Assembly: GCA_963693305.1 (NCBI GenBank)
Contig: OY855903.1
Coordinates: forward strand, 52,289,150-52,353,149
Origin: Meandrina meandrites
Lineage: Eukaryota; Cnidaria; Anthozoa; Scleractinia; Meandrinidae
DNA length: 64,000 nucleotides
Direction: 5' to 3'
The translations under genes were made by a program, and so were the position numbers. Of this stretch, positions 7,057 through 47,427 are shown piece after piece (the stretch's first letter is position 1; each line of letters starts with the position of its first letter). Under the pieces are notes generated by a model. It saw only the letters and a program-made list of their open reading frames with translations, did not search any database and was not told the origin of the DNA.

Positions 7057-7303
7057 GGTTGCCACCTTGCCGTGGTGGTGAAGCTTGTGTGTCTCAATGA
7101 CCCAGAGAGCTGTGCCGGCGGGGACTTTGGTCCCTGGCAGGTCTAACCATGCCGGATTGGTCGAAGGGTAGAGGCCAGACGAAGAACAGCCCCTGGTCCT
7201 CCAGGTTGGGGGTTGGGCTGCGGGCTGATAACCCGCTCCTGTAAAAAAAAAACATTATTACCGAAACCAGAAGCAGAATAATTTCAAATGATCTGGGGAC
7301 GTA
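7053..7303 (+). mobile_element. 5' leader of the RTE-like LINE
   Basis: It begins gttgccaccttgccgtgg, a leader sequence I recognise from RTE-like elements of several animals, and runs into the endonuclease frame at 7304. It sits directly against the 5'-truncated RT part in the opposite orientation, marking the inversion junction. Confidence 0.7.
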
Positions 7304-7812: not shown

Positions 7813-7828
7813 TATGAAACAAGAAATG
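7813..7828. repeat. Right target-site duplication of the LINE
   Basis: tatgaaacaagaaatg, identical to 5477-5492. The element's own sequence probably ends in the same tatg (the family encodes His-Asp-Met here), giving 4-bp microhomology at the junction. Confidence 0.85.
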
Positions 7829-7854
7829 GCTGAGTTATTTTGTTGCTCGTGTCA

Positions 7855-7925
7855 AAAGCGCATGGCTGAGTAGTTTATTTTAGGGCGCTGGATTTGAAAT
7901 CGGAAGGTCCTTGGTTCGTATTGCC
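7855..7925 (+). repeat. tRNA-derived SINE-like fragment
   Basis: It has an A box like TGGCTGAGTAGT and, 48 nt later, a B box like GGTTCGTATTGC, with a gctggatttgaaatc anticodon-arm region resembling tRNA-Ser. It is too degenerate to be a functional tRNA and lies just outside the LINE target duplication. Confidence 0.5.
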
Positions 7926-9303: not shown

Positions 9304-9825
9304 TTACACCCATAGATCGTCGTCCTTTCCACCCCCACCCCCACTGTCCTTTAACCGGAGCGTCCTGTCATTGGGATTGTCATTCTCGTCTCGCACTGAA
9401 TTCGCGGCTGACGGTCTTGAAGAGGTCGACATGACTTCCATGGGAAGGTCATCTCGTGACCGACTCCCCCTGGAATAGTTATCATCCGATGCGTATGGAG
9501 GGGGGATCTGATTCAAGCTCTCCCCCCAGCTACGTTGTCTGTCTGATTCCGAAGAGATGTCAGTCCCCCCTGACGGCTCGCCATTGACGTTTCCCCAGTT
9601 ATCCCTTGGCCGACGACTGCCGCTTCGCCACTGATCGTCATCATTCTCCAATCGGCTGCTGTTCGGATCTCTTCGGTTCCGTTCGTCGGGTGTTCGAGGG
9701 AGGGAGGTGGCTTCGTAGTCCATCGGCGCGCGAGCTTGTTCGGAATTTCTGTTAGGATCGGGCTGCCAGCCTTCGTTCTTTATTTGTTGTTGCAGTGGAC
9801 CATTGTTCCACAGATTGTTCAAAAC
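9304..9825 (-). CDS. Terminal exon: last Arm helix and C-terminal tail with DLWV PDZ ligand
   Basis: A 522-nt exon with acceptor TCTGTTGCAG, opening VLNNLWNNGPLQQQIKNEGW (p120: VLQTIWGYKELRKPLEKEGW) and ending at TAA 9306-9304. The rest is a disordered tail of about 150 residues rich in Ser, Arg, Asp and Asn, with a PPPY motif, a Gly5 run and C-terminal KDDDLWV. ARVCF, CTNND2 and PKP4 end in DSWV, which binds PDZ proteins such as Erbin and Scribble family members, so this looks like a conserved PDZ ligand. The upstream open frame to 9927 is intron. Confidence 0.93.
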   Translation of the reverse strand, partial: VLNNLWNNGPLQQQIKNEGWQPDPNRNSEQARAPMDYEATSLPRTPDERNRRDPNSSRLENDDDQWRSGSRRPRDNWGNVNGEPSGGTDISSESDRQRSWGESLNQIPPPYASDDNYSRGSRSRDDLPMEVMSTSSRPSAANSVRDENDNPNDRTLRLKDSGGGGGKDDDLWV

Positions 9826-11599: not shown

Positions 11600-11664
<65 letters not shown>

Positions 11665-14600
11665 CACCTTGCTTACCTGGTTGGCTATTTTTATGACTCG
11701 CGGCGAGTACTGTTTGTTCTGATCTGTCGCTATCTTCACTATCTTTTGAATGCCTTTGGTCTTACGTAGATATCTGCAAAAACACAGTCATATAAGAATG
11801 CGGACAAAGACTGTTAAGACAGGGTCGACCATCAAGAAAACAAGACACTTTCGATGGTGCAATAGTCTCCTTCGCAACCGGTGTTTGGAGGGAGCGTCGC
11901 GTGAAGAGCCCAAACAACGGCTGCGAAGGAGGCTAATGGTCCAAATGCTTTAGCTTGCCGATGTTTTCGGGAGATGTTAGCTTGTTTAACATTGGTGAGG
12001 AACAATTTAAGAATGAAAAGAAAACAACAAAAACACCACTAACTTGCAGTTCTTTTCGCTCTGGTTGGTGAGCTGGTAAATGGCACACAGGAGCGAAGCT
12101 ATTGTTGGATCCTGTACAAGCCGCTCCTCCTCCTCTCCTGTGGGGAGTCTGAACACGAGGTGTATAATCGCTTTGTCGCCTGAGAAATAAAACAAGCATT
12201 CAAGAATAAAACTTAGCTACAAAATAGCTTGGGATGTCTTGCAACGATGAGCTAACACTTTAGGAAGGAAATCTCAACATTTTCGTGATTGGGAGAAACT
12301 GAAAAAATGGAATTACAACATGATTGTAATACAACTTAATATTACTTTGCTATAATTTACGTAATCTAAATGAAGGTAAAACAAAGTTGTAACACACGCG
12401 AAACAGGGTTAATTGTTTGCGTATTACACATCATGTTATCCTGTAGAAGACTGCTCAATAACAGCTGAAAATTTGGAAGATGTGTCCTTGTGACACTGTC
12501 CGAGGTAGTCTCCATTTTCAGAGAGGAGCAAAGTTTTTTTGTTTCGTGGATCTCGAAAAAGCCCATTAAAAAAAAACGAAAAAAATTAGAAGCCGCAAAA
12601 ATTGTGTGCCCTACACTAGCTCCTTCGACAGTTCCGCATTCAAACCAATAATTAAATTTCCACTCACCAAATAATTATATACATGAAGATGATTTGTTTT
12701 GAAGGTATCAATATTGCTCTAAGGCAAAACATGAAAGGACAGCCTTACCAACAGTTCTCTTGTTTTCCGAGTCGACGCACAAGTTTCGAAGAGCGATGGC
12801 GGCTGCACGGATCGTTGGATCGTAATCGATTCGTAACAGCTCCACAATCTGAGGAATGACTTGTGCTCGTCTCGTGTCTCCACGGATCTTGATCGCCCAC
12901 TGTGCGGGGTAAATAACAAAGTTATTGTATTGGATCGGAGGTAGTCAGATATATAATTAAAAATCGAGTTCGAGGTCCGTTCTGTAATGTCGAATTCAAC
13001 GGGGAAATGAGGAACCGCATCTTGCAGTAGCGACCGAGAAAATGACGCTAATAAGATATTTATTACCTCGTGTTTTGAAGCATGGAGCACATTTCGAGTC
13101 AAGAGCGCGGGAATCGGGCCATACGAACTTGAAAATTACTATCCGGAGACTTGATAAAGACTAAATCAAATAAATACACCAAAATTACGCACCTTCCACG
13201 AACAAGCCGTCAAGTTGTGCAAAGCCCCTGCCGACCCCTCAAGCGTTTCAGTGTTCTTGGCCTTACGTAATAGCGCGTAATACTGTTGCACTGTCTGCGG
13301 TTGCCATATTAACTCCACTCCTTGAGGAGGCCCCCTCGGTCGGTCCATGGGCCTTTTATCGTTAGGGACCTTTTTCTTCTTCCTGCCACCGCACCCTGCG
13401 AAACAGCCCTGGCTTTGTTGTTCCTTGACTGCCGCGGGATCCACGTCCACGTCAGCGTCATCATAACGATCCCTGTCAATCTCGCTCTCAAGCCGATATG
13501 ACAGGTTTCTCAGCGTGCACACGCAATGCTCAAGACACTGGAAAAAGAGAAAAAACGGAATTATAACTCCATGTAATATATAATGAGGATTACGGTACAT
13601 TCTTCAGTCACAAAAAGTTAAAAAACAGGGGCTAAACAGCTTCATACGGTGATATTTTCGTGACTGACATTCTACGCCAAAACGTTATCAACTGAACATG
13701 AATATGATCCACTGTAGTTGTGAAAATGTTAGTATTTGTCTTCAACAACGATAGAAATAAACTTATGTACAAATTAACCATAGGATCAAAAGAAACTTTG
13801 TAAATTCAACATTCAAGCTGACGAGTTAGCTAATTACATTAGGGTGACCTCAAGTTAGTGATTTATCAGCTTATAATTTTTCAGATAGCCCACTGGGCGC
13901 AATTCACTCCGAGCAATCTAGTGTAGTGAAGATTTAAATCCGGCGCACCCGTATTTCAAGTCATTTAGTTACCTTGTTATCGTACTGTTCATTCTTGACG
14001 CCAACTCTAGTAATCCACACTAGACAGTCGACCAAGTCTTTCTCGTCCCTAAGCTCCTGCCGGGCCCTGGTACCAGCTGAAGACAGATTGCGCACGAGTC
14101 TGGTGGCATGGACGAGCACCGCTGCCCAGGGTTCGCTCCTGACTGGCAGCTGGCCTCTAGCGGCTATAGCTGTCCACTCGGAGTACGGTATGATGATGAT
14201 AATGACGATGATATGGAGACATACGAGAAGGATTCTTAGACGAAGCGACTGCAAAAGAACGCAGATAAGATAAACCGACCTGTATTGCGTGGATTTTAAC
14301 AATCCGTAGCTAAAGCGTTGCCAGCACCTTCAAAGTAAGTCTTTGTAAGTCTTGATGCTCACAGCTGACGGTTACAGTAGCATGAAGCGCACAGAAGCAC
14401 TGCTACGCCACCCTCCCCTCCCCCGGATGGGATGCTAGGCGTAAGTCCATCACAGGTTACTCTCCAGCATTCTGTCAGGTTGCCCCAACAATTCACCAAA
14501 ACCCATTTATACACCTGGGTGGAGAGAAGGACTCTGAGAATAAAGTGTCTTGCCCAAGAACACAACGCAGTGCCCCGGCCAGCACTCGGACCAGGACAAA

Positions 14601-17600
14601 TTCATCCGGACTCCACTACGCTAAGTATCATAAATACTACTTCTTTAAACATATTATTAAAGTCAAATATGAATAAATTTCTCACCTCAACGGACGATAA
14701 ATTGCATAAAACGCCTAAAATTGCTTCTCTGTACTAAAAGAGAAAATGATACGAGGAAAAGTTAGATTATCGTTCGAAAAGAACAAGAAAAATGTCGATG
14801 GCTGTTCTTACCTCTGTCTTTTCGGTTTCTTGCAAGATTTCAATAAGGATTTCAATTCCACCACAATCCGCAATGGCCAACTATCAAAATAAACACAGTT
14901 TCAAAGTCAGCGGATTCATTTTCTTTCTTTCAAAAGTTCGAAGCTACAGAAAGTTAGTGATTCAGTCCACTCCACTGGTATAATTTCTTATGCGCTACAG
15001 TCCTCAAAAATGCACTTTTCCAAAACGTCGAGCTTCATTTGCCCGAGGATCAGAAAGTTGTTGGGGCGCGGGGAAAATGACGTCACGTGGAAAGTCACGT
15101 GGTTAACACCAAGTGGAGTCAATCCCGTATTCAGTGGAATGTGCAGTTTTCATACCCTGTTAGCGTCGTTTCTCATACTAAAAGAGAGATTCCTCAGCAG
15201 ACAGATGGCTGCATATCTAACGCGCCATTCAGAATGCCTCAACAGCCTCACTATGACACGAATACCACCGAGCTCTCTGCAAGACACGCACAATGAAAAC
15301 AGCAATCATTAAATAGTTCAAACAGTTTTCCAAATAGCGAGCAACATTGATACCCCAGAACACGCGACGCAAGGCCATGAAAAAAAAAAGAAAAAAATTG
15401 CGAGGATATGCAAATCGACTGAGCAATTGCTGGGTACGGCGGGGTAAAATTCAGGCTACTTAGATTTTCTACAGGGGACTATTTTTTGGCGATTCCAAGA
15501 TCATTGACATTTGAAACAAGAGAAAAACATTCTCAGCTTTCATTGAATAAATAGCGCGTGAAATTTAGGATACCTTGCATTGCTATATAATCGAGGCTAG
15601 CGCTTGTTTTTTGTCTTAGAGTATGAGCTTTAAGGATAAGTAAAGTCAACTGCGGGAGTTACTATGAACGAGACTCAAAATGCGAGCTAGAGATAGTTTA
15701 AATTGGTCGTTTTGCACTGGAGTCAATGTTTGCTGAAGATAATTTTCCGGGGATTTTTCTTTTCATTTGCCAATCTTGAGTTAAGTCGCGAGGAAAATAC
15801 AGCAATAAACTGTCAAAAAAAATTATGCTGATCGGTGGTGATACTTGGACAAAATAGAAGGTATTGCAATCATAACAGAATGTACTTAACCCGATGTGGG
15901 GGAAAGACTATAGGAATAGGACGGGGATGCTCGTAAGGAGTGTTAAATTCGGATTTTTGGCTCAGTGTGATCAGGACAGAACGTTACATTTTTCGCCATC
16001 AAGGTCTCATTTAGCGTTGCCAGCGAAAAAATGAAAAACGCTGACATACTGTGTTAGCTGCCTCGATCGACTAGGATTGGAAACTGGCATCTTTAAGGGA
16101 TCAAAAAAGTAGTAAAAAAGCTTGAGCCACGCGCCCAGATTTGTCTTATTTATTAGTAGTTTAATTCGAATATCCTGACAAGTATTCTGTTTCTCATATA
16201 TGGGAGTCCCTCTTGGGGCACTGAATACCTGACTTTATCCTTGACGGATTCTTTACTGTAGCACAAATGTTGCAGGTATCCGGCGGCGTTGATAATCTTG
16301 AGTTCATCTCCGGACTGCATAAAATCAATTAGATCTGGAATATCCGGCTCTTGACCAACTAAAAGGACCACAAAGAGAAAAAGGATGAAAAAGAAAAAAA
16401 ACAACAACACATTGCAACAGAGGCACAATGCTGACGCACTATCACAAAACTATTCCCATACGAATGACGAAACAAACCAGCCAGCCAAGTTTTGTAACCG
16501 GTTGCTATCCTGCGAACAGTTGGTTTCTCCGACGACGAACTCCCAACGTCCCCCACACCGAACGAGCGCTGCGTTCAGCGTAAGGGTAACCAACTGCTCA
16601 CAGGGTAGCCTCTGGTAGGCGTGGTAAGAGCTGTTTCGTCATTTGGCCATTGGTTTAAGGTTTGTACTTGAGTGGTCAAATTATAAGGGGCACTAAAACG
16701 CGACACTATACAAAAGGTCGTGCATGGATAGCCAGATAGGGGACTACAAAAGAAACGAGAATATTACAGAGGGGAGGGGTGAGTAGGGTTGTGAAAAGGG
16801 GCACCCTATCAGATGTCAAGGTACATTCTATATCCAGTATAACGCTTTAATGCCACCAAGAGTCTAACAAAACAACCTCCAAGTAAAGACCATTTTGGAG
16901 CTGGCGACTTAATTGGAACCAAAGTCGCCAGCCTGGCGACTAAAATTGAAAAGAAGGATTAAAAGCATGAGCTTAATTTAGTGCTAATTTAGAGCTAAAT
17001 TTTTCACTGGCGACCAAACTTGAGCAGTCAGTGGCCAAATGGCCACTAAGGAAAAAATAAGCTTGGAGGGTTGCAAAATCACTATAGGAAATAATGTTTA
17101 CTGACCTAGTTGGCCGTAGTTCCAAGAATCTGAAGAAAATGAAAAATAATACATATTTAATTAGTCAAGGATTTTAATAGTATTTTTACGAGCTAAATAA
17201 CAACAATCAATGTCAAAATGCTTCTAAATTCTACACCTCACCTAATGGAAGGTCAACTTCATTGTTTCGTTCACCGATCCAGCGACCACCTTTGAAGACG
17301 TAACGCTCACCACGAGCCAACGAATAGATCACAACTTCGTCTAACAACCATCGAGAGTTCGAGCCAGAGTTGTCATGTCCCACACGCAGCATCTTCAACT
17401 GCAAGAGAAGAAGGGAGAGGAAAAACAACCAAAGATTTTTACGAGTCTGAGGTGTACTTGTATGATTGAAATGTCACGTGACAAGCTGAGTCAAAGAGGT
17501 CCTTCACTGACAAAACTGAAGAAATTGCTTTCCAGTTTTACAACGAACTAGGAACGATTGAAATAAGGAAACACTTTTACACACATAACACTTTTTATCA

Positions 17601-37437: not shown

Positions 37438-37480
<43 letters not shown>

Positions 37481-40400: not shown

Positions 40401-43400
40401 ATGACAATCAAATTGTTTATTTTTTTCAACTTGTGCATGAAATCTTCACAGAACTATAAAACAGCACATTTCTACCAAGGCGACACTTTTATATCATACA
40501 CTGCAATCAGCAATTAATTGACATCATGATCACTTGCATGTTGGCACGATCTCTTATTATTCCTTTAAAAAGCATGCATAAACACAAGCATTGTATAGCC
40601 TCATCCAAAAGATTCAACCTCAGAATGACTATGTAGGTTTCATTCTTACAAGCCTCAAATGTTCACACTCCTAAATAAAATTGACTGTAAATTTGAAAAT
40701 GGCAATGTGGCGTGCATGGCGGGACTCAACACTGCACTGACTGCTAGATTAACATGCTGATGTGGTGACCTTAAAGTTTCACCAATCTGCATAAAAGAAG
40801 CTTGGTTTTGATCTAATTTTTATACATAATAGGTGATCACTGCGTTCAGTCTAAGCTCATACACACCAGCCAAATAAAGACCTCTCACTCAGTTTATAAA
40901 TTAAAATACATTAAGAATGCAGTTACACACTCACTTTGCCCACATCCATGGTCTGCACAGTAAACCTGTCTGTGCGTCCCCGGTCAAACCTCTTCAGGGT
41001 TTTGCCGGATTCTTGCCGCAGCATGATCTTTTCAGTCTGACCTTTGTCTCCAAATAACTGCAGAGTCACGTTAGCATCTGTTCCCGCATACGGCATGTCA
41101 CCAGTCTTGAATGTCAAACTATAGGCAACATCTGGGGAAACAGATTTAAAGAAAAAAATTCTGTTTACACTTATCACTGTAGCACAACATCTGTGATCAA
41201 TATATCACTTCGCTTTACACTATTAATACATAAATTAAGGAAAGAAGGAAGGCGAATTAGGAGATTCATCAACCACATGCAGGAGTCATTGCTTGATGAA
41301 CTTTTGCACAAGCTACTGGTGCACAATTCCTAGTGAAACCCCTGGTGCAAAAATGGCTTTTTTTCTTGTAGTTTGAAGCAGTTACTGGGAAATTTCGACC
41401 ATTTGTTTTCTCATAATTATATTTTGAACAGATAGAGTCTGTGAAATATAATTACTACCAACTAGTAGATGTACATCAATAAGAAACATACTTTCTGGTC
41501 TTTTGACAGCCTTTCCAGGCAGCAATTCTCTCTCTGTTTTACTATCCCACACATCCTCTGCCAGCCAGCAGGCACAAGGGAACTCAACTGTCGGGTCGCC
41601 ATCTGTTGGCACCACTTTGACGCTGTCCACAAACAGTCCTTTGCCATAGCCTCTACTGTCCTGACCCAGACGGATTTTCTCAATCTGCAAACCAAGCATA
41701 ACTTAAAGTGCATTTTTGATGCAATCAGAAGGGCTTAATTCTGCATTATTACTGTGACTCATTTATTGAAGGTGGCGAATGGTGAATCCCTACTAACTGT
41801 ATGTTTCCCCTGCCATGTTGGATAGTGCAGTTCGTTCAAATTTCTTGTGCAGTGTGTTTTAATTTGAAAGCAAAATAAGTAGCAATCAGAGGCATTATTT
41901 ATTTTGCATGTTACATAACACTGTAAAGGGGGAGAGGGGGAATTAGAAACAGGAGGTGCGCCAATATTTTGTCACTGATTGTTGGACTTGAAAGTATAGA
42001 CTGAGTGCAGCAAGGTCTGAATACTTAATTAAAGCTCTCTGCTGTGAGGTTGGTTGATTTTAGGTATCACCCATTTCAAGTTTGCCTTAATCGTCTAATA
42101 AATTGTATTTACATATAATGCACATACCCTTCCTATATCAACAGTCAGGGCGAGTGTAAACTTGTATGTTTTCTCTCTTTGTAATGGTTCTTCTGGCCTC
42201 AGGAAAACCTTGCTTGTTTCACCTCTCCGACCAATCAAATAGATGTAAAGTGTTGCTTCGGGGTTCAGCACCTCTCCAAGACGCACGGAAACTGTGTGGG
42301 TTATGTCGGAGTCTAAAGAAACCATACTTATTATTGTCATGAGATACTGACAGTGTAATTATAAACCATTTTAATTACTCATCTCCAATCAGTAGAAGTG
42401 AGGGTCAGCAAGGTTGTTTTGATTTGTTATTTGTTAATGATTGGTTGCTATATTTTTGTGGTCCACTTATTGTGAAAAACCATTCTGGATATCATGATGA
42501 CTCTTGTGTGACTCTGGCGACTTTTTTCTGTATTAGTGACCCCTTAGGATCAAGCCCAACCCTTAGCAGGGTTTCGTTATAAGCGATATATGACGGCTGT
42601 GACCACAAAAGGGGTGTAAGGCCCCTTTCCCCTGGGGGGAGGGCCTGCTCCTCCAGAAAAATTTGAAATCTAGAAGCTTGGAAAGCAATTTCCAGCACTC
42701 TGGGCATCAAAAAGTATGCTGTTGATGAGTGTTTTTATTAACAACAGAACAGGTTTTTTTAACAAACTAAATGACATCTTAACAGATGGCGGTATGAGGC
42801 CGTATAGCTAGTGGTAGACCACCGGTAACTGGCTCTTATTCAATCCCCTGCAGCTCCTAACATCATGTCTATATTGTTCTTTACTATTTACAAAAAAAAA
42901 AATTATGCCAAAATTTCAGGTTGGAAATTTATTGTCTGTTTGGGAAGAATGTGTTCCATTTAATACTTCCTCAAAGAACCCGACATTTCTTTTAAACCAC
43001 AAAATTTGGCGTGTACAAGCAGAAAGGCTGAAATGTAAATTTCCATTCAGGATGTCACAACTGGGACAAGTTTTTTGTGAAATTAATAACCTTGGACTTG
43101 ATGAACTTCTAAGCAGTGTACAATATTAGAAGCTCAAAAGGTTCATTTAAAATTTTTCTACAGGAACAGTTGGCAAGTAAAACAGTCACAATGATGTTAT
43201 GTCACTTATAAAGTTTACCCGATGTATGTGGAGTTCTTGTTCCAGGATAAATCTCTCTCTCTAATTTGCCATCTCCAATATCTTCTGCTAACCAACAGGA
43301 ACAAGGAAAGTATAGTGGTTCTTCGTCATCAGGAGCAACTTCAATCTCATCCACAAAAATCCCCTTGCCACTCCCGTGGCCGTCATGACCAACACGAATT

Positions 43401-46400
43401 CTCTCCACCTTACATAACAAGGAAAACAATCAATTTAGTGTGAGCCATCATTCCCATAAATGTTTAGAAATCCTAGGTTTCCTGATTAACGACCATCCTG
43501 TGGTTTCCAGAAAAGAACCTGTGCACACTAACAACATGAAACATCACCCTTAACAACATGCTGTCTACATTAACATTAGATCTTGTTTAGAACTCTCTTG
43601 AAAATTACAGGGTTATTCTGCAAAATTTAACTTTCACCATAAAGTAGATTTATGTACCTTTCCTATATCTGGCATCTCAACTGAGAACTTGTAAGTTTTT
43701 CCCTCTTGAAACGTATCTGCCGCAGTCCCTGATGGGCGGAGCACAATTTTGGTACTCTCTTCGTGTTCTCCACATAGTTGCAGGTACAGCTTGGTGTATG
43801 GGTCCAACACTTTTCCCAGATGAACAGACACAGTGTAGCCCTTGTCTAAGTTTCAAATAAACAGTAACATTGTATAATTAAATTATACTTCAATTTCATC
43901 ATCATAGTTACGGGTAACCGATTGACAAAAAAATAAAAATAATATCAGTTAAATCTCTTTACGGCCAAGAGTGCAGCCATGAGTCAATTTATGAATGTAG
44001 AGTACATGTATTGGATTTGAAAGACAATTTTATTACCCACTCTATTCTTGCAATAAAAACCTTGTATTTATTATTTATGTTAAGTTCCAGATTTCAAAAA
44101 ATGTTTCTTGCTTGGTATAAAAAAAATATTTTGACAAAATTTTAATTATCGCTAATAGCAGGGTGTCCGCAAGGCAAGAGTTGACTGTAGCTTTTAAATC
44201 CTGGGTGCCAAGATATTTTTTATCTTTAAAGACACAGTCTCACATATACATACTGTATTGTTATGTTTATGTTTTAAAATTTCAAATTCTTACTTGGTGT
44301 AGGAGTTGAGGAATTCAAATCCTTAACTGTCATTTCCGTTAGCTGATCCTGTGCCAGCCAGCAGTTGCAAGGAAATGTGTAGTGGTTGCCATATGATGGC
44401 ACATCGATTTCAACTTCTTTTACATGGAAGCCTGTTCCATACTCCATGTGATCATGACTGAGCTTAATTCTCTCAACCTGCAAAGATGATTATAATAATG
44501 AACAAAAAATAATCCCTAGTGCTCCATCTTGTTCTAGTTACAAAACTTTTTGCAAAAATATTTCCGTTATTGTTAAAATTCACCATTGCTGTTTTTAACT
44601 ACTAACAAAGGGATTTTTAAAAAGTGCTGATTAGCTAGATTTCAACCTCCCTTTTTTAAAACGTAGGTAATCAAATAGTCCCCATTCTGCCACCCATTCC
44701 TTGTGCAGAGGTTCCACCTGCTAAGAGAGGCAGGGGGCTCTGGGAACAAATTAAATTAGTGGAATATACAATACATTATGTACAAAATTTATGTGTTGTT
44801 CCATTATATCAATTCAAGTTAATATTCATACTTTTCTCTATTAACAAGACTTTCTAGACTTCCGTCCACCCCATCACCTCAGGGTTTCTCTCTGTGGGGT
44901 GGGTATGGATATTTTCTGGAACCACACAATAAATTAAACTTGAAGTACCTTTCCGATATCCAAGGTGGTGACCATAAACTTGTACTCTTGACCAGTTTCA
45001 AACCGGTTTTTCTCGTCCCCTGCTTGCCGTAACTGTATTTTTGCTGTATTTCCTTTAGATCCAAACAACTGGATATACACGTTTCCATCTGCGCCATTAC
45101 CCTTCACTTCGCCAAGTTTCATTTTCATATTGTACATTACTGGAAAAAGAATTTGAGTAGGTTTTTAAAACTTTGAGCCCCTAAAAATAAACCCACTTTG
45201 AACAAAGATGCAGTGCAGAAGCAGTGTTTGTACTGTTGTTTGACAAGCTGGGTTGGGCCTGCTAAGGCCAGGTTTGCTTGTGTGCTACCTAGGGAAGGTA
45301 CTTAACCCTCCACCCTCAGCAGGTGTATAAAATTTTAAGTGGTTGCCAGTAAATTTAATGCTGGAGTTCATGTGACCCTGCAATGGTCAGACTAGCATCC
45401 CATCTGGGACAGGTAGGAAAGGGGGAGTAGAAAATAAATACTCCAAATGCTGGGGCAGGTACAAAAGTCGGACTAGATCAACTCGGATAACTGATTTGAA
45501 TAAGAATAGCACCATTGTGTATTTCCTCGTTCTTGAATAGCTGCTATACTTATTCAAATCAGTAATCCGAGTTGATCCGGTCTGACTTTTGTCGGCCCTG
45601 CCTTTAATGCTGTGGAAACCAGAATACATCAGAGTCTCATCTCTCAAGATGACTCTCGACCCTCAAGATGAGACGAGAGACTCATCTCACATGAGGGTGG
45701 TAGCTTACTTTTGAGCGTCACTGTAAGTTGTGCACTTTTATATACACCTTACACCTTCACATTACACATCAGTGGCATACAGCACAAGGTCCTTTAATTT
45801 AAACGTGACCTTAGGTTGGAACATCTACTTTTATTAATTATTTTTGGCTGCAAGCAAACGCTCACTGTTTTCCCTTCAGTCCATGTCCTCAAACCAATTA
45901 AAATGCTGAATTTTATCCAGCCAGCCTTGGGGGCAAGAATTTATTTCAACACTGTTCCTGGGGGAGGAGGATTTCAAAAAATTATTGAATAATGACTTTC
46001 GACAAGGGATGTACTCATGTTTTTGTTACGTACCATTTACTTCAGGAATGCCAGATTTTGGATCTGATGGTGTGCGTTGCTTTACTAAGGATGATGTACG
46101 GGGAAGAGTTGACGGCTTTGCTGGAGAGGACTCTGTACTGGCAGAACGACTAGCTTGAACTGCAAAATATGGACACAGTGACAGGTCAGTGTTATTACCA
46201 CAGATAATAAATATTATTTCATTATGTAAAAAATAAGAATGTTAAGTGAGTTTGCATTACATGGGGCTTACATATGCAGGTATTAGGTAAAGGGTAGCTA
46301 GGTTAAGTCTGTATTCAGGCCTAGTGAAGTCATAGTCATAGGCATACCAATTTTTCTTGGGAAAAGGCGCAATGAGTTTAACCCTATGTGAAGCGCCAAC

Positions 46401-47427
46401 CCATGAAACAAGGCCAGACCACAACACAGGGAACTCCGTGCCCTACTCTTTGCGACAAGTGTGTGGGTTCTTTAGTTAAATTTACAGTCCTTATCCGATG
46501 AGACCAGAATGTCTAACCATTTGAAGATATAGTCACAAAGGCAGCATGCATGTTCTCCTCGTGATCAGTTATTTTAGGCCCCTGAGTGTTGGTCCGGTCT
46601 GGGCTTGAATTCTTGACCTCCCGCACAAAAGTCTGACACTCAACCAATTGAACTTACCTGTTGTACCACTAGGCTAGAGCTTATCCCTGTTTCTATAGCA
46701 TTAGACAACCTGCTGTCATACTATCCAGGAGAGGGGTGGGCAGAGAAATACTCCTTAGTCATGTTATAGTACTGTAACTGAAGACACATGTCAGCACCAT
46801 GCCAGCCTGACTATTGGCCTTTCAGATGCAGACTTACCCTACATCACCCAAGGTTTGATTCAGAGTGAAGGGATCTTATCGACATGCTGTTAGCATATCA
46901 TGTACTGTACATTCAACGTGACAACATTTAATATTTAACATTATAGCTATTATGTCATAGATGTATTAACTACCTGGACTTTCCCTGCCGTTGGAGGTTT
47001 TACGACCAGTTGAAAAGGATGAGGATCTTATGGGCATGGTTACGCTAGATATCTTTGTTCCGCTTCCTGTCGAACCAACTGAGCTGCCACTCAGCTTCCT
47101 TCCTGTACCACTACCACTGCTGTATGTCCGCTGCAAGGAACCTTGATCACTTGCATCTGATCCGCGCTTCTTGTGTTGGAATCTGTCACCTGTACTCTCT
47201 GAGCCAGTGTCCCCATTCATCATATAAATTGTTCTTTTGGTACGAGATGTGTCATGCGATGTGTCAATTCCATTTGTAATAGTTCCATTGACATATCGGC
47301 CATATCTGTCAGGGCTTTCTGCATACTGCCGCTCACTCCTGGTCTCGTGCGTGTCTTCACTTATTGTATGAACTTGCCGCACTTCTCTTCTTGTGAAGGA
47401 TTCGTTTCTTGCAGTTTCCCACTGCAT
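9304..47427 (-). CDS. 15x PLAT (LOXHD1-like) - p120/delta-catenin armadillo fusion protein, 51 coding exons
   Basis: Reconstructed by hand from splice sites: 51 exons, 8202 nt, 2733 residues plus stop, all junctions in phase. Residues 1-193 are Ser/Gly/Arg-rich with no signal peptide. Residues about 194-2095 hold fifteen PLAT/LH2 beta-barrels, and about 2103-2560 hold the Arm repeats of a delta-catenin. The last 173 residues are a tail with a PPPY motif and C-terminal DLWV. PLAT domains bind membranes or protein partners; LOXHD1, also an all-PLAT protein, is needed in hair cells. Delta-catenins bind the juxtamembrane tail of classical cadherins and regulate Rho GTPases. A fusion would plausibly link cadherin junctions to membrane lipid or other PLAT ligands; this is inference. 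The alternative is two adjacent genes, but I see no terminal PLAT exon that must be used and no separate first exon for the catenin before 16358. The start ATG at 47427 has an in-frame TGA 9 nt upstream. No poly(A) signal was identified. Confidence 0.75.
10497..10670. repeat. Palindromic element in the last intron
   Basis: It contains gtattttgacgagccc facing gggcgagtcaaaatac (10519-10553) and a second palindrome gagtacaaatatc/gatatttgtactc (10641-10670) with perfect 13-bp arms. Probably MITE debris. Confidence 0.5.
11029..11221. mobile_element. MITE with TA duplication in the last intron
   Basis: The ends gacctttttcgcttgggcg and its inverse form TIRs extending about 50 bp with few mismatches, flanked by TA on both sides (11027-11028, 11222-11223). 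At 193 bp with a TA target it looks like a Tc1/mariner-type non-autonomous element. Confidence 0.7.
11599..11664. repeat. (TGAT)n microsatellite beside a splice donor
   Basis: About 16 copies of ttga/attg. On the minus strand it begins about 6 nt past the donor of the Arm repeat 9 exon. Confidence 0.95.
11677..11773 (-). CDS. Delta-catenin Arm exon (repeat 9)
   Basis: A 97-nt exon, phase 2 in and phase 0 out (CAG|GTAAGC). It encodes YLRKTKGIQKIVKIA and SPRVIKIANQ, equivalent to LRETQGIEKLVLI of p120. A (TGAT)n microsatellite starts 13 nt past the exon end, just inside the intron. Confidence 0.9.
11875..11933. repeat. Hairpin MITE fragment (GTCTCCTTCGCA family)
   Basis: gtctccttcgcaaccg faces cggctgcgaaggaggc. 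A longer relative lies at 59619-59718. It sits in the intron upstream of the Arm repeat 9 exon. Confidence 0.6.
12044..12179 (-). CDS. Delta-catenin Arm exon (repeat 8-9)
   Basis: A 136-nt exon, phase 1 in and phase 2 out, with acceptor TTTCTCAG and donor AA|GTTAGT. It encodes DKAIIHLVFRLPTGEEEE and ASLLCAIYQLT, equivalent to HAIPNLVKNLPGG and the following helix of p120. Two overlapping reading frames are open here; this one matches the family and the phase. Confidence 0.9.
12749..12899 (-). CDS. Delta-catenin Arm exon (repeats 7-8)
   Basis: A 151-nt exon, phase 0 in and phase 1 out (GTTG|GTAAGG). It encodes VIPQIVELLRID and IRAAAIALRNLCVDSENKR, equivalent to AASGALRNLAVDARNK in p120. Confidence 0.93.
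13193..13537 (-). CDS. Delta-catenin Arm exon (repeat 5-6 with basic insert loop, repeat 7)
   Basis: A 345-nt phase 0-0 exon with acceptor TTTTTCCAG and donor AAG|GTGCGT. It encodes CLEHCVCTLRNLSYRLESE (p120: ENCVCLLRNLSYQV), then an acidic stretch and a Cys/Gly/Lys loop GRKKKKVPNDKRP, then GVELIWQPQTVQQYYALL and EGSAGALHNLTACSW. The Lys-rich loop corresponds to the polybasic insert of p120, implicated there in Rho binding and nuclear entry; that role here is by analogy. Confidence 0.95.
13973..14248 (-). CDS. Delta-catenin Arm exon (repeats 4-5)
   Basis: A 276-nt phase 0-0 exon with acceptor TTTTGCAG and donor AAG|GTAACT. It opens SLRLRILL, runs through a hydrophobic Ile/Val stretch to IPYSEW (p120: IPHSGW), then has LVRNLSSAGTRAR and ELRDEKDLVDCLVWI, as in other delta-catenins (LRNVSS, LRECDGLVDALIFI). 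The Ile run is encoded by an ATC/ATT microsatellite-like tract near 14190-14215. Confidence 0.93.
14380..14620 (-). repeat. Dispersed SINE-like repeat fragment in an Arm intron
   Basis: It holds acccatttatacacctgggt and aagtgtcttgcccaagaaca, motifs of a dispersed repeat I know from marine invertebrates. Fragments of the same family in opposite orientation appear at about 45240-45440 and 46720-46860. Confidence 0.5.
14686..14733 (-). CDS. Delta-catenin Arm exon (repeat 3 end, GVLCNLSS)
   Basis: A 48-nt phase 0-0 exon with acceptor CTCTTTTAG and donor GAG|GTGAGA. It encodes REAILGVLCNLSSVE, aligned to GTLWNLSS in p120; the almost invariant Trp is Cys here. It is small but required to complete the Arm repeat. 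Confidence 0.88.
14812..14880 (-). CDS. Delta-catenin Arm exon (repeat 3 start)
   Basis: A 69-nt phase 0-0 exon with acceptor TTGATAG and donor GAG|GTAAGA. It encodes AIADCGGIEILIEILQE, matching the p120 segment with IAIKNCDGVPALVRLL. Confidence 0.92.
15156..15276 (-). CDS. Delta-catenin Arm exon (repeats 1-2)
   Basis: A 121-nt exon, phase 2 in and phase 0 out, with acceptor CTTGCAG and donor AGG|GTATGA. It encodes ELGGIRVIVRLLRH, YAAICLLRNLSF and a NDANR end, equivalent to the p120 helices around GACGALKNISFGRD. Correct Arm spacing is kept with both neighbours. Confidence 0.92.
16229..16358 (-). CDS. Delta-catenin Arm repeat 1 exon
   Basis: A 130-nt exon, phase 1 in and phase 2 out (GTCAG|GTATTC). 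It encodes IPDLIDFMQ followed by INAAGYLQHLCY and VKDKVR, closely matching the first Arm repeat of p120 catenin (NAAAYLQHLCY). This is where catenin homology begins, one codon-pair after the splice from the PLAT side. In p120 this groove contacts the cadherin juxtamembrane core. Confidence 0.93.
17106..17129 (-). CDS. Linker exon joining PLAT 15 to the armadillo region (8 codons), with possible alternative stop
   Basis: A 24-nt phase 1-1 exon after CTTCAG, ending CTAG|GTCAGT and encoding SWNYGQL. It splices in phase into the first Arm exon at 16358. If the donor is not used, the frame reads only Gly-Gln and then TAA, so the exon could also end a PLAT-only protein. GTCAGT is a weaker donor than most in this gene. 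Confidence 0.6.
   Translation of the reverse strand: MLGTTAN
17242..19571 (-). CDS. PLAT module 15, AGTDANV class (exons 19384-19571 and 17242-17398)
   Basis: Residues about 1980-2095. The N-half exon (188 nt) has YDVEFKTAAEEDAGTDANVY, GEDGETQEIDL and AKDVGR at donor GTGAGA. The C-half exon (157 nt) begins LKMLRVGHDNSGSNSRWLLD and has FKGGRWIGERN in place of FPCxxWL, ending DLPLG at donor GTGAGG. The 2-kb intron between the halves holds a Mutator-like long-TIR element (17885-18820) and half a palindromic MITE (18969-19120). Confidence 0.92.
17885..18820. mobile_element. Mutator-like non-autonomous element, 936 bp, TIRs about 300 bp
   Basis: It starts ggttgttagtaatc and ends in the inverse, with long inverted arms (17885 to about 18200, and about 18500 to 18820) including gcttgggccatccc and gagtttatttcgagtg. 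It is flanked by a 9-bp direct duplication ATCCGAGAG (17876-17884, 18821-18829). Long TIRs with a 9-bp duplication are the hallmark of Mutator-like elements. Internal sequence (about 18220-18480) shows no transposase. It lies in the intron between the halves of PLAT 15. Confidence 0.75.
18969..19120. mobile_element. Truncated copy of the 270-bp palindromic MITE
   Basis: It matches the right half of the element at 38581-38850 (cctgggaaaacc, tgcctagcaacgtctgtcat, end cctgaatccgctg followed by ta). The left half is missing. Confidence 0.75.
19904..19921 (-). CDS. Micro-exon (6 codons) before PLAT 15
   Basis: An 18-nt phase 1-1 exon with acceptor AATTACAG and donor G|GTAAGT, encoding TGAAL. The strong donor and exact phase match are the only support. 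Confidence 0.45.
20236..20254. repeat. Homopolymer C run
   Basis: About 19 consecutive C. Similar intronic or flanking C/G runs of 12-25 bases occur at about 21733, 23338, 34498, 55560, 59051 and 61119. Confidence 0.9.
20313..20363 (-). CDS. Linker exon (17 codons) after PLAT 14
   Basis: A 51-nt phase 1-1 exon with acceptor TTATTCTAG and donor G|GTACGT, encoding DDIEGPVTPIGIENLQ. Its start resembles the EDIEG at the end of PLAT 13. It is an acidic spacer. Confidence 0.6.
20909..22127 (-). CDS. PLAT module 14, AGTDANV class (exons 21934-22127 and 20909-21077)
   Basis: Residues about 1836-1957. The N-half exon has YHMTIKTGEKQNAGTDANVY, GDKGETPRIAL and TADVGK at donor GTGAGG. The C-half exon (169 nt) begins LDKLVIGHDNKGQDPAWYLE and has a divergent core FRCGGWLGGERPGQ, then LFPG at donor GTAATG. 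A hairpin MITE sits in the intron between the halves at 21451. Confidence 0.92.
21451..21569. mobile_element. Hairpin MITE in the PLAT 14 intron
   Basis: cgagagagtgtttcatcaca at the left faces tgtgatgagacactcgctcg at the right, with further pairing over tttccaaacacct. It is about 119 bp. Confidence 0.65.
22280..22495. repeat. Cluster of AAAGCGCGGGAAAA motifs (E2F-like)
   Basis: Six or more degenerate units of about 30 bp each carry gcgcgggaaaa or close variants in the intron between PLAT 13 and PLAT 14. The reverse complement TTTTCCCGCGC contains the E2F consensus TTTSSCGC. Related motifs occur at about 28295-28370, 30664 and 35848-35915. Confidence 0.6.
22614..23616 (-). CDS. PLAT module 13, LDP class (exons 23444-23616 and 22614-22806)
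   Basis: Residues about 1714-1836. The N-half exon (173 nt) has SVKVGEVLDPEVNPFYQIIG, KNGETNKIRL and SPDVGE at donor GTAGGC. The C-half exon (193 nt) begins ITKLRIGDDGYGRGRTMFVE and has FPCRCWLGKDDNDT and ELIPGK, ending EDIEG at donor GTAGAT. Confidence 0.92.
24491..24529 (-). CDS. Linker exon (13 codons) before PLAT 13
   Basis: A 39-nt phase 1-1 exon with acceptor GCTTTTCAG and donor G|GTATTG, encoding KGSLPGQDGMYT. It is a flexible Gly-containing spacer, skippable in frame. Confidence 0.5.
24766..24789 (-). CDS. Micro-linker exon (8 codons) after PLAT 12
   Basis: A 24-nt phase 1-1 exon with acceptor TTGTTTAG and donor G|GTGAGT, encoding KSNQNIV. The perfect donor and phase agreement support it. 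Confidence 0.5.
24936..25963 (-). CDS. PLAT module 12, AGTDANV class (exons 25773-25963 and 24936-25092)
   Basis: Residues about 1577-1693. The N-half exon has RIMVKTGDESDAGTDANVYL, GEKGKTQNFAL and TQDIGK at donor GTGAGA. The C-half exon begins LSSVRISRDNKGVKPGWLVD and has FYCNRWLASSD, with Tyr for Pro in the usual FPC, ending TPG at donor GTGATT. Confidence 0.92.
26591..26614 (-). CDS. Micro-linker exon between PLAT 11 and 12 (8 codons)
   Basis: A 24-nt phase 1-1 exon with acceptor TTTTTTGCAG and donor G|GTAATT, encoding ETKDLSQ. It is supported only by splice consensus and phase fit. Confidence 0.5.
26911..27060. repeat. Palindromic element (gttggtgcc...ggcaccaattg)
   Basis: aacagttggtgcctgggc at the left faces gcttgggcaccaattgtg at the right, with more ggtgcc/ggcacc pairs inside. 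It is a MITE-like hairpin in the intron between PLAT 11 and its next linker exon. Confidence 0.55.
27151..28201 (-). CDS. PLAT module 11, AGTDANV class (exons 28011-28201 and 27151-27307)
   Basis: Residues about 1453-1569. The N-half exon has YQVTFKTGDRPNAGTTAKVQ, GDNGKTEAIQL and TRDVGK at donor GTGTGT. The C-half exon (157 nt) begins IEKLHVCHDNSGRDPDWYLE and has FPCHRWLVGSQRD and VPG at donor GTATGT. Confidence 0.92.
28639..30522 (-). CDS. PLAT module 10, LDP-like class (exons 30350-30522 and 28639-28822)
   Basis: Residues about 1334-1453. The N-half exon (173 nt) has HLKLGEVADPYAPVWIQLVG, EKGESGQIQI and VADIGR at donor GTAAGT. The C-half exon (184 nt) begins IMDVKVGQDV, continues GLYVEEVVVTA and has FPCHCWTGDED. 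The 1.5-kb intron between the halves holds a 106-bp minisatellite and a partial duplicate of the C-half exon (29452-29514). Confidence 0.9.
29452..29514 (-). CDS. Possible duplicate exon: partial copy of PLAT 10 C-half
   Basis: Between acceptor GTATACAG and donor GAG|GTAGGG lies a 63-nt open segment encoding IVDVRVGQD, then 10 residues, then YEE. It matches the start of the next exon, which reads IMDVKVGQD and then YVEE. It is phase 0-0, so it could be included without a frame shift but would duplicate a strand of the barrel. It cannot replace the 28639 exon, because the next acceptor needs phase 1. It may be a real alternative exon or a decaying relic of a duplicated exon. It is not counted in the 2733-residue product. 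Confidence 0.35.
29709..30270. repeat. Minisatellite, period about 106 bp, about 5 units
   Basis: Units start with aataaacagtaccacatga at 29861, 29967, 30073 and 30182, plus a diverged unit at 29709. Each also has caatagctttca, tggtcac and ccacagact. It lies between the N-half exon of PLAT 10 and the duplicated partial exon. Confidence 0.85.
31059..31091 (-). CDS. Linker exon between PLAT 9 and 10 (11 codons)
   Basis: A 33-nt phase 1-1 exon with acceptor GTACAG and donor A|GTAAGT, encoding DEKTRTELYT. It is short, charged and skippable in frame. Confidence 0.6.
31439..32610 (-). CDS. PLAT module 9, AGTDANV class (exons 32414-32610 and 31439-31589)
   Basis: Residues about 1207-1323. The N-half exon has YNMTFETEDVPFAGTDATVY, GEKGQTEK and TADVGK at donor GTAATC. 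The C-half exon (151 nt, the shortest) begins LTKLRVGHDNTGRNPEWYLK and has a divergent core EYNNWIAGEE instead of FPCxxWL, so the Phe-Pro-Cys signature is lost. The intron between the halves contains a tRNA-like SINE at 32127. Confidence 0.9.
32120..32200 (+). repeat. tRNA-derived SINE-like fragment
   Basis: It has A box TAGCTAAGTGGT and B box GACTTCGATTCC about 40 nt apart. It is in the PLAT 9 intron and too degenerate at the ends to be a tRNA gene. Confidence 0.5.
32684..32727. repeat. Short perfect hairpin
   Basis: agagtactggggtgag and ctcgccccagtactct are inverted (one mismatch) around a 12-nt loop. Confidence 0.6.
33128..33834 (-). CDS. PLAT module 8, LDP class (exons 33668-33834 and 33128-33320)
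   Basis: Residues about 1087-1207. The N-half exon has LFRLGEVLDPKAKLYMILYG, DRGESGKIYL and IKDIGK at donor GTACAG. The C-half exon begins INKVYLGNDSHGRGRGIFVE and has FPCRCWLAEDEGDGKTARVL, ending QLDS at donor GTAAGG. It is the last of the near-identical quartet 5-8. Confidence 0.93.
34672..35644 (-). CDS. PLAT module 7, LDP class (exons 35478-35644 and 34672-34864)
   Basis: Residues about 967-1087. The N-half exon (167 nt) has AFRLGEVVDPRAKLYMILYG, RKGESGKIYL and IRDIGP at donor GTGAGT. The C-half exon begins IEKINLGNESRGPGHGVFVE and has FPCRCWLAEDEGDGQSARVL, ending SYDS at donor GTAAGT. It is a tandem sister of modules 5, 6 and 8. Confidence 0.93.
34920..35100. mobile_element. MITE-like inverted repeat (ctcagagc...gcgctctcag)
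   Basis: ttaccattagtcagaact at the left faces agttctgactgatggtaa at the right, with ctggcc/ggccag inside. It is about 180 bp in an intron. The target duplication is unclear. Confidence 0.6.
36187..37192 (-). CDS. PLAT module 6, LDP class (exons 37029-37192 and 36187-36379)
   Basis: Residues about 848-967. The N-half exon has GFRLGEVLDPDTKLYMVLYG, DRGESGRIYL and IKDIGN at donor GTAAGT. The C-half exon begins VQKVHIGHDSKGRNKGVFVE and has FPCRCWLAENEDDGKTARV, ending PYDS. It is nearly identical to modules 5, 7 and 8, which points to recent tandem duplication of two-exon units. Confidence 0.93.
37436..37479. repeat. (TTA)n microsatellite
   Basis: About 14 consecutive tta units in the intron of module 5-6. 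Confidence 0.95.
37884..39051 (-). CDS. PLAT module 5, LDP class (exons 38888-39051 and 37884-38076)
   Basis: Residues about 729-848. The N-half exon (164 nt) has SFRLGEVLDPRTKLFMVI, then GDRGDTEKIYL and TTDVGK at donor GTAAGC. The C-half exon (193 nt) begins VRNISMGQDG, continues GVFVEEVEV and carries FPCRCWLAEDEDDGQTTRVL, ending YDS. It is the first of four closely similar tandem modules (5-8). The intron between the halves holds the 270-bp palindromic MITE at 38581. Confidence 0.92.
38581..38850. mobile_element. 270-bp near-perfect palindromic MITE with TA duplication
   Basis: It begins cagcggattcaggttgagtg and ends in the inverse. The two halves pair almost throughout, including gacagacgttgctaggc with gcctagcaacgtctgtc. 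TA flanks both ends (38579-38580, 38851-38852), as for Tc1/mariner-type non-autonomous elements. It lies in the intron between the two halves of PLAT 5, and a half copy is at 18969. Confidence 0.85.
39475..39560. repeat. GACA/GGCA microsatellite
   Basis: Imperfect gacagacaggcaggcag repeat in an intron. Confidence 0.9.
39653..39700 (-). CDS. Linker exon with Pro-Glu repeat (16 codons)
   Basis: A 48-nt phase 1-1 exon between acceptor AAATTAG and donor G|GTATGG. It encodes a PEPEPEPEPE repeat followed by MAEYQ, a stiff acidic spacer between PLAT 4 and PLAT 5. The underlying repeat (ggttctggttctgg on the plus strand) may vary in copy number. Confidence 0.65.
39964..40026 (-). CDS. Linker exon between PLAT 4 and 5 (21 codons)
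   Basis: A 63-nt exon between acceptor ATTATAG and donor G|GTGAGT, phase 1-1. It encodes an acidic, flexible segment (DEGKVQEENITVAEIS). It is skippable without a frame change, so it could be a cassette exon. Support is the good splice sites, open frame and exact phase match. Confidence 0.65.
40147..41131 (-). CDS. PLAT module 4, AGTDANV class (exons 40935-41131 and 40147-40312)
   Basis: Residues about 571-692. The N-half exon has the classical LOXHD1-like loop FKTGDMPYAGTDANVTLQLF, with acidic residues at the usual calcium-binding positions, then GDKGQTEK and a MDVGK end at donor GTGAGT. The C-half exon begins VERIRLSHDNTGPNPEWYLE and has FPCNRWLTGDED and VYPG at donor GTATGG. This is the first clear member of the second PLAT class. 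Confidence 0.92.
41492..42312 (-). CDS. PLAT module 3, LDP class (exons 42128-42312 and 41492-41684)
   Basis: Residues about 445-571. The N-half exon has HTVSVRLGEVLNPEATLYIY, then GRRGETSKVFLR and a VDIGR end at donor GTATGT. The C-half exon begins IEKIRLGQDSRGYGKGLFVD and carries FPCACWLAEDVWDSK and RELLPGK. LNP replaces the usual LDP. The intervening intron is 443 nt. Confidence 0.9.
43219..43845 (-). CDS. PLAT module 2, LDP class (exons 43658-43845 and 43219-43408)
   Basis: Residues about 319-445. The N-half exon (188 nt) has YTVSVHLGKVLDPYTKLYLQ, then GEHEES and a MPDIGK end at donor GTACAT. The C-half exon (190 nt) begins VERIRVGHDGHGSGKGIFVD and carries the YFPCSCWLAED core before an acidic IGDGK loop. 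Phases are 1-0 and 0-1, so the module is a symmetrical 1-1 cassette. Confidence 0.9.
44294..45139 (-). CDS. PLAT module 1 (exons 44949-45139 and 44294-44477)
   Basis: Residues about 194-319. The N-half exon (191 nt, phase 1-0) carries LGEV, GADGNVYIQLFG and FETGQEYKF, and ends TLDIGK at donor GTACTT. The C-half exon (184 nt, phase 0-1) begins VERIKLSHD, continues GFHVKEVEI and has the FPCNCWLAQD core that closes a PLAT barrel. The module is intermediate between the two PLAT classes of this protein: it has a GADGNV loop like the AGTDANV class but a C-half of the other class. Confidence 0.88.
45240..45440 (+). repeat. Dispersed SINE-like repeat fragment
   Basis: It contains ctgcaatggtcagactagcatcccatc and cagcaggtgtataaaat in the order seen in a dispersed invertebrate repeat. 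It is opposite in orientation to the fragment at 14380. Confidence 0.45.
45453..45605. mobile_element. Hairpin MITE in the intron before PLAT 1
   Basis: actgatttgaataag faces cttattcaaatcagt, and gatcaactcgg faces ccgagttgatc. AATGCTG occurs immediately outside both ends (45446-45452, 45606-45612) as a possible 7-bp target duplication. Confidence 0.6.
46034..46159 (-). CDS. Coding exon 2: Ser/Pro-rich linker before the PLAT array
   Basis: A 126-nt phase 1-1 exon between acceptor TTTTGCAG and donor G|GTACGT. It encodes 42 residues rich in Ser, Pro, Thr, Lys and Arg (SPAKPSTLPRTSSLVK), probably disordered and a likely phosphorylation target. Because it ends in phase 1 it can join either PLAT 1 at 45139 or, equally in frame, the first armadillo exon at 16358. 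Confidence 0.7.
46310..46660 (-). repeat. tRNA-derived SINE
   Basis: On the minus strand it has an A box region aagttcaattggttgagtg, then tttgtgcgggaggtcaagaa with a B box, followed by a body with ggttagacattctggtctca, cggataaggac and gagtagggcac. I recognise this head and body as a common anthozoan tRNA-derived SINE. It lies in the intron between coding exons 1 and 2. Confidence 0.65.
46720..46860 (+). repeat. Fragment of the dispersed SINE-like repeat
   Basis: tatccaggagagggg, agaaatactccttagtc and gatgcagacttaccc match the tail of the family seen at 45240. Confidence 0.4.
46974..47427 (-). CDS. Coding exon 1: disordered Ser/Gly/Arg-rich N-terminus
   Basis: The exon opens at ATG 47427-47425, in context CCACAATGC with an in-frame TGA 9 nt upstream, and ends phase 1 at CCAG|GTAGTT. 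Its 151 full codons are rich in Ser, Gly, Thr, Arg and charged residues and look disordered. There is no signal peptide or membrane segment, so the product should start in the cytoplasm. The first half has several Arg/Glu/His-rich stretches and the second half is Ser/Gly-Thr repeats (SSVGSTGSGTK). I do not recognise a family. It could be the original N-terminal regulatory region of the delta-catenin, which is similarly disordered in other animals. A good donor (AAG|GTGAGC) lies just upstream at about 47438, so alternative first exons are possible. Confidence 0.7.

Follow-up and report, generated by a model that had tools for sequence, protein, structure and literature searches.

A fifteen-PLAT array in one frame with a delta-catenin armadillo domain: a Meandrina meandrites gene and an overlooked anthozoan protein family

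Among non-bilaterian animals, Nematostella is a standard model for the cadherin-catenin complex, and PLAT domains, which are known to bind membranes or other proteins, are familiar from coral lipoxygenases and polycystin-1, in which a single PLAT stands beside an enzyme or a channel, without an armadillo (Arm) domain. The PLAT loops of lipoxygenases bind calcium, and one loop is thought to insert into membranes, as a passage of PMC7436259 describes. Long PLAT arrays are represented by LOXHD1, which, in passages of PMC10802736, is described with 15 PLATs in the mouse and is reported to bind TMC1 in vitro, as well as CIB2 according to a section heading. Nematostella p120 or delta2/ARVCF catenin is spoken of without PLAT domains in passages of PMC3141441, PMC5968619, PMC13245172, PMC4265756 and PMC11613877: PMC3141441 has no word beginning with PLAT, PMC4265756 has no 'PLAT domain', and the passages of PMC5968619, PMC13245172 and PMC11613877 do not mention PLAT domains. 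In passages of PMC4890752, PLAT is named only in a polycystin-like skeletal protein. In this report, we describe a gene of the stony coral Meandrina meandrites in which a PLAT array leads into the Arm domain of a delta-catenin. Judged by sequence comparison, what is new is the PLAT-delta-catenin architecture within the known delta-catenin family, and the proteins that share it are a real, overlooked protein family.

The gene lies on the minus strand, from 47427 to 9304, of a window of 64,000 nucleotides (contig OY855903.1, positions 52,289,150 to 52,353,149 of the forward strand), which is the whole stretch of DNA analysed here. It extends over 38 kb with 49 introns, and its model comprises 50 exons and 8172 nt including the stop codon, which encode 2723 amino acids, the PLAT array passing into the Arm domain in one frame. 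The model was derived from splice-site and codon scores and then revised, by inspection and by comparison with Oculina patagonica P0001, its closest relative; exons were removed if relatives had no counterpart or if they interrupted a PLAT or the Arm domain, and the GT-AG intron ends, which the predictor imposes, carry no evidential weight. The model and P0001 are identical at 2582 of 2720 residues, and gap-free exon junctions (within 4 residues) were found at 48 of the 49 positions in P0001, 47 in P0003, 48 in P0004 and 47 in P0005, the last two being on transcript-size contigs. Between exon 1 and the first Arm exon, all 25 introns between modules are in phase 1 and all 15 introns within PLAT domains are in phase 0. 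A preliminary description of this locus had given 51 exons and 8202 nt with matching phases; the phases hold, and the count is revised by one exon and 30 nt. Its fifteen two-exon PLAT domains on the minus strand are borne out, as a similarity search places 15 first-half and 15 second-half PLAT exons in alternation from 45139 to 17242, and Pfam reports 15 PLAT stretches (E 3.8e-244) and the Arm domain (E 2e-23) on the joined model.

The protein begins with a disordered N-terminus (47427-46034), continues with the 15 PLATs and short linkers, a 24-nt exon and the Arm domain, and closes with a tail ending in DLWV. Exon 1 (46974-47427) opens at the start ATG with MQWETARNESFTRREVRQVHT..., a start identical in P0001 to P0004, and ends in phase 1; exon 2 (46034-46159), located by tblastn of P0001, holds the remainder of the disordered segment (VQASRSASTESS...SGIPEVN). 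The PLATs, recognised by similarity and each made of two exons, lie at 44294-45139 (PLAT 1, exons 45139-44949 and 44477-44294), 43219-43845 (PLAT 2), 41492-42312 (PLAT 3), 40147-41131 (PLAT 4), 37884-39051 (PLAT 5), 36187-37192 (PLAT 6), 34672-35644 (PLAT 7), 33128-33834 (PLAT 8), 31439-32610 (PLAT 9), 28639-30522 (PLAT 10), 27151-28201 (PLAT 11), 24936-25963 (PLAT 12), 22614-23616 (PLAT 13), 20909-22127 (PLAT 14) and 17242-19571 (PLAT 15, exons 19571-19384 and 17398-17242). PLAT 4 is followed by an acidic, EP-rich linker at 39653-40026 (exons 40026-39964 and 39694-39653), the length of which differs among relatives. Further linkers, placed by the gene model and alignment to relatives, follow PLAT 9 (31059-31091, VDEKTRTELYT), PLAT 11 (26591-26614, AETKDLSQ), PLAT 12 (24491-24529, EKGSLPGQDGMYT) and PLAT 14 (19904-20363, exons 20363-20313 and 19921-19904). 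The joint between array and Arm domain is formed by the 24-nt exon (17106-17129, DSWNYGQL), which is kept in P0001 to P0005, and the first Arm exon (16229-16358, VGQEPDIPDLIDFMQS...) is entered in phase 1. Eight Arm exons follow within 11677-15276 (15276-15156, 14880-14812, 14733-14686, 14248-13973, 13537-13193, 12899-12749, 12179-12044 and 11773-11677), and the last exon (9304-9825) carries the Arm end and a disordered tail with PPPY, up to DLWV (9307-9318), which is of the same type as the PDZ-binding DSWV with which delta-catenins end, and the stop codon (9306-9304). For the Arm exons and the 24-nt exon, as well as for the junctions 19384/17398, 17242/17129 and 17106/16358, the first description holds. 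By sequence, PLAT 14 has the PLAT fold (2fnq, E 2.8e-10; polycystin-1, E 1.8e-5), and the Arm domain is of the p120 type, homologous over its whole length to the p120 structure 3l6x (E 9.3e-77). The PPPY of the tail, which we take to be a possible WW-domain ligand motif, is kept in Nematostella P0006 and Actinostola P0007.

Several other elements were noted in the window. A retroelement fragment occupies 5500-7873, with a reverse transcriptase reading frame on the minus strand at 5954-7093 (RVT_1, E 1.6e-35), a continuation of that frame at 5500-6045, and, on the opposite strand, a reading frame at 7292-7873 that is endonuclease-like by eye and has no Pfam match. The intron of PLAT 15 holds a perfect 234-bp inverted repeat (17930-18163 and 18543-18776, 379 bp apart), perhaps a fold-back element or an assembly feature; that of PLAT 10 holds a tandem array at 29772-30270 (106-bp unit, 4.7 copies), and the last intron of the gene a perfect ATTG microsatellite of 16 copies (11600-11664). 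Outside 9300-47430, neither P0001 nor P0012 gave a tblastn match at E 1e-3 that would point to another family member within the window. Rfam gave no match at gathering scores, and none of the ten flanking reading frames (three at 1.8-3.2 kb, seven at 52-63 kb) has a Pfam match.

A search with the Arm part as query and whole-protein length as a filter, limited like the others to about 8000 candidates, returned 25 proteins, 16 of which (P0001 to P0016) carry PLAT and Arm domains together; the other nine, one long fish plakophilin 4 and eight other armadillo-type proteins, are all without PLAT. Eleven of the fused proteins come from named species, namely Oculina patagonica (two), Stylophora, Pocillopora, Porites, Acropora, Nematostella (two), Actinostola, Dendronephthya and Xenia. 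A lineage lookup places Oculina and Nematostella in Hexacorallia and Dendronephthya in Octocorallia, all within Anthozoa; the other hosts are likewise anthozoans, so that the named species comprise stony corals, sea anemones and soft corals. The five further fused proteins, of 1,736-2,725 aa, are on contigs of 5,981-9,533 bases, which look like spliced transcripts, since a gene such as that in the window, with its 38 kb and 49 introns, would be too long unspliced. The C-terminal ends of the sixteen relatives are DLWV, DVWV, NDLV, NDWV or DSWV. In the Actinostola P0007 model, a long low-complexity Ile/Val/Thr stretch lies within the Arm domain and is probably a retained intron. In the databases, members of the family are named 'lipoxygenase homology domain-containing protein 1-like' or 'uncharacterized protein' (P0001, P0014 and others).

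On this comparative evidence, the PLAT array and the delta-catenin Arm domain are one gene. The preliminary description had proposed a single fused gene and a search for proteins with both domains, and both proposals are upheld, by the eleven named anthozoan and five further proteins and by a shorter kind of relative in which a delta-catenin N-terminus precedes the PLATs. It had also known of no described protein that combines the two; in the literature, no description of a PLAT or LOXHD1 architecture with a catenin or armadillo part was found in the titles and abstracts of the open-licence papers listed, and in the databases the gene has its place in a conserved anthozoan family. The window protein has a PLAT array directly before a delta-catenin Arm domain in one frame, and its Arm domain belongs to the anthozoan clade described below; the gene is very probably the 15-PLAT member of an anthozoan PLAT-delta-catenin family.

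The family comprises two kinds of proteins. The long kind has 15 PLATs in the window protein, P0001 and P0004, with counts of 13 in Nematostella P0006, the model of which starts late, and 14 in Actinostola P0007, which is partial. The shorter kind has nine members, seven of hexacoral type (1,736-1,961 aa) and two from octocorals (1,610 and 1,642 aa), and the six of these nine that were counted (P0008, P0011, P0012, P0014, P0015 and P0016) have six PLATs each. Both kinds share one contig size in Oculina (P0001 and P0010, 64,437,903) and in Nematostella (P0006 and P0014, 20,793,841), and the two paralogues are probably on one chromosome in each species. The N-terminus of the 6-PLAT protein P0011 matches all nine bilaterian delta-catenins given, coiled coil included (E 2e-35 to 2e-4), best in amphioxus (60% over 106 residues, E 2e-35) and Glandiceps (58% over 107, E 4e-33), so that in this kind the array sits between a delta-catenin N-terminus and the Arm domain. 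The N-terminal part with coiled coil and regulatory region is present in P0011 and P0012 and absent from the window protein, the N-terminus of which aligns weakly, with no low-complexity filter, to the region after the coiled coil in five of eight N-termini (E 5e-8 to 3e-7). The delta-catenin earlier called 'complete' is therefore not so, its N-terminal coiled coil being missing. The coiled coil is also missing from some p120 isoforms and plakophilins, and its absence is not decisive for membership of the subfamily.

In a tree of 26 Arm domains, 18 fused and eight without PLAT, the fused rows form one clade (100/100) with the octocorals outermost, and within it the 15-PLAT clade (100/100) stands beside a 6-PLAT hexacoral clade (95/89). 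Removal of the two longest rows leaves this arrangement intact, with the 6-PLAT clade at 94/92, just below threshold. As the fused clade includes both octocorals and hexacorals, the fusion most simply arose once before their split; the simplest reading of the sequences is thus a single PLAT insertion at that stage, followed by a duplication in the hexacoral line. By reciprocal best matches, window PLATs 1, 2 and 4 correspond to units 1, 2 and 3 of the 6-PLAT paralogue, PLAT 1 being orthologous to unit 1, and in a PLAT tree the other twelve group with type 2 (seven, 100/98) or type 3 (five, 83/91). From this grouping, the 15-PLAT array seems to have expanded from the first three units.

The PLATs of the window are not uniform. 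As read from the alignment, the first loop is shortened in eight of the fifteen (2, 3, 5-8, 10 and 13), and the second-loop tryptophan, present in PLATs 4, 9, 11, 12, 14 and 15, is missing in nine (those with the shortened loop and PLAT 1); with these differences, the window PLATs cannot all bind alike. By analogy with the described PLAT proteins, both lipid and protein ligands are possible. The one structure model is of a Desmophyllum fragment belonging to the 6-PLAT kind (P0026, 776 aa) and was computed together with nine relatives. The model (mean pLDDT 77.4, pTM 0.51) shows three beta-sandwich units, with the last strand at 358-361 and the first Arm helix from 367, and does not fix how PLAT and Arm are angled to each other. 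Among PDB entries, it matches p120 with E-cadherin best (3l6x, E 1.3e-21, 40% identity). The short joint of the model suggests a close coupling of the PLAT and Arm parts.

Taken together, these features lead us to propose that PLAT-delta-catenin is a cytoplasmic scaffold. Its PLAT array would dock at many points on membrane lipids or membrane proteins, the Arm groove would grip a short peptide from a transmembrane partner, and the C-terminal DLWV would bind a PDZ adaptor. In the 6-PLAT form, the partner in the groove would most likely be the juxtamembrane tail of a cadherin, and the array would hold the cadherin complex in place at the membrane; the changes in the groove of the 15-PLAT form suggest that its partner is weaker or another one. 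As an explanation of gene identity and function together, we consider this account the probable one; its functional steps, taken by themselves, are tentative, and we would not give them even chances.

The groove can be compared residue by residue in p120 numbering, which was anchored on R364, Y389, Q391 and H392 as named in passages of PMC5968619; according to that paper, the electrostatic contact residues range from Q391 to K574. All eight 15-PLAT sequences replace W477 (Cys in six, Arg in two), N529 (His) and G532 (Arg), which plakophilin 1 and all the other aligned delta-catenins have in common; in the window, the W477 position is a TGC (Cys) codon at 14704-14706, where the other delta-catenins aligned have Trp. 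Ishiyama 2010 is reported to place W477 and N478 in the lining of the pocket for the cadherin glycines. The bilaterian, octocoral and 6-PLAT rows are invariant at 87 columns, and all eight 15-PLAT rows depart from them at 16 of these, in several cases conservatively (Leu to Ile, Lys to Arg); in the reverse control none of 59 columns differs in all 6-PLAT rows. A plainer count starts from the 107 columns at which bilaterian and octocoral rows do not vary, and of these the 15-PLAT rows have all lost 20 and the 6-PLAT rows five. Since the 15-PLAT branch is long (0.82) and several changes are conservative, the Arm changes may partly be general divergence.

The strongest rival to the account of a changed partner is that the 15-PLAT paralogue retains ordinary cadherin binding, and that both paralogues are p120-type cadherin stabilisers with an array added. 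Y389, Q391, H392, K401, N434, N478, R535 and N536 are kept in all eight 15-PLAT sequences, K574, at the end of the contact range given in PMC5968619, is kept in seven of eight; with these positions kept, cadherin binding may survive. K444 is Arg in six of eight. The replacement of W477, N529 and G532 in all eight sequences weighs on the other side, and because positions that are invariant elsewhere have been replaced, coupling to cadherin by the 15-PLAT paralogue appears doubtful. We regard unaltered cadherin binding as a serious minority reading. The earlier proposal that the protein couples cadherin-bound catenin to PLAT ligands is kept for the physical link between catenin and array, and is doubtful for the cadherin-bound state, in view of the three replacements, other contacts being kept; the junction or stereocilium-like setting that it named, like any PLAT ligand, is putative.

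A LOXHD1-like role, in which ciliated or stinging cells would use the protein to anchor a mechanosensory channel complex and the Arm domain would give additional hold, is unlikely. It would agree with the number of 15 PLATs described for mouse LOXHD1, with the in vitro binding of TMC1 and CIB2 noted above (PMC10802736, in part), and with the expression of jellyfish LOXHD1 in hair cells, as stated in a passage of PMC11250803. The arrays themselves do not correspond. By our own PLAT profile, LOXHD1 has 17 units in Trichoplax, sturgeon, oyster and Glandiceps, and the Trichoplax units pair reciprocally and in order with those of sturgeon (15 of 17) and oyster (14 of 17); the window PLATs give only 4, 3, 1 and 1 reciprocal pairs, scattered, with the four LOXHD1s. 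Orthology of the array to LOXHD1 was therefore rejected, LOXHD1 being collinear from placozoan to fish and the window array not, and the label 'LOXHD1-like' in the preliminary description, if meant as orthology, has to be given up. P0147 is a 20-unit LOXHD1, largely collinear with those of Trichoplax and Glandiceps, with extra units.

Among LOXHD1 units, 7, 10 and 13 are nearest in likeness to the PLATs of the family. In a tree with the Trichoplax and Glandiceps LOXHD1s, 27 fused PLATs fall on one side of a branch (98/91) and are joined to units 7/10/13 (98/84). With those of sturgeon and oyster, the fused PLATs are not one group (AU p 0.21), because two long-branched unit-16 rows fall inside; when these rows are left out, the fused PLATs form one group (87/84) and the link to units 7/10/13 has 72/0. 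An origin of the PLATs from LOXHD1 units 7/10/13 is thus unsettled on these trees. With the first 700 residues of P0012 as query, the best 120 of 161 matches comprised 13 fused proteins, all known from the Arm search, and 107 without Arm, and no LOXHD1 among these 120 has an Arm domain; the known members P0006, P0015 and P0016 are not among the 120 listed.

It is also conceivable that alternative promoters or splicing yield mainly separate PLAT-only proteins and PLAT-free catenins, the full fusion being a minor product. In its favour, several entries are named as isoforms (X1-X3). Full-length frames of both kinds on transcript-size contigs speak against this, as does a search for PLAT-free relatives with a 6-PLAT Arm query among proteins of about 467-1487 aa, in which 4767 of 8000 scored proteins match at E 1e-20: the best 120 of the 4767 hold one Desmophyllum PLAT fragment and 119 proteins without PLAT, which, where named, are from amphioxus, hemichordate, vertebrate and centipede, and no version of the 6-PLAT kind that lacks PLATs. 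The ranks below these 120 are where a distant anthozoan delta-catenin, or a product of the 15-PLAT gene without PLATs, would fall. We consider a predominantly split gene improbable. That gene prediction chained two neighbours, a LOXHD1-like gene and a delta-catenin, has in its favour, as a matter of reasoning, that the halves resemble two known families, and is ruled out but for a very slight chance by the delta-catenin N-terminus ahead of the PLATs in the 6-PLAT kind, the transcript-size contigs, the conserved joints with the joining 24-nt exon kept in P0001 to P0005, and phase 1 on both sides.

For the PLAT-delta-catenin family, a bolder reading may be considered, namely that anthozoans have no ordinary delta-catenin, all of theirs carrying a PLAT array, and that the later hexacoral 15-PLAT paralogue, its groove re-tooled, links membranes or channels to a new partner other than cadherin. 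We place this reading somewhat short of an even chance. If it is true, the anthozoan cadherin complex has a p120 arm that comes with a docking array of the hair-cell LOXHD1 type, and if the anthozoan delta-catenin is a PLAT protein, then results from knock-downs, antibodies and interaction screens call for a fresh interpretation. For such genes, the automatic name 'LOXHD1-like' misleads. The family is also a clear case in which phase-1-bounded modules were shuffled into a core adhesion protein, which then duplicated, enlarged its array and diverged in its binding groove.

Compared with known systems, the window protein shares its Arm domain and PDZ-type C-terminus with the delta-catenin or p120 subfamily (CTNND1, CTNND2, ARVCF and PKP4), which has the coiled-coil N-terminus in common with the 6-PLAT paralogue; it differs from this subfamily in having 15 PLATs before the Arm domain, in lacking the coiled coil, and in the replacement of W477, N529 and G532. 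LOXHD1 likewise has a long PLAT array, but one that is not collinear with that of the window, and the window protein, unlike the LOXHD1s among the matches listed, ends in a catenin Arm domain. With the PLATs of coral lipoxygenase and polycystin-1, it shares the PLAT fold by sequence. The anthozoan entries named 'LOXHD1-like' or uncharacterized belong to the same family as the window protein, and their names omit the catenin half.
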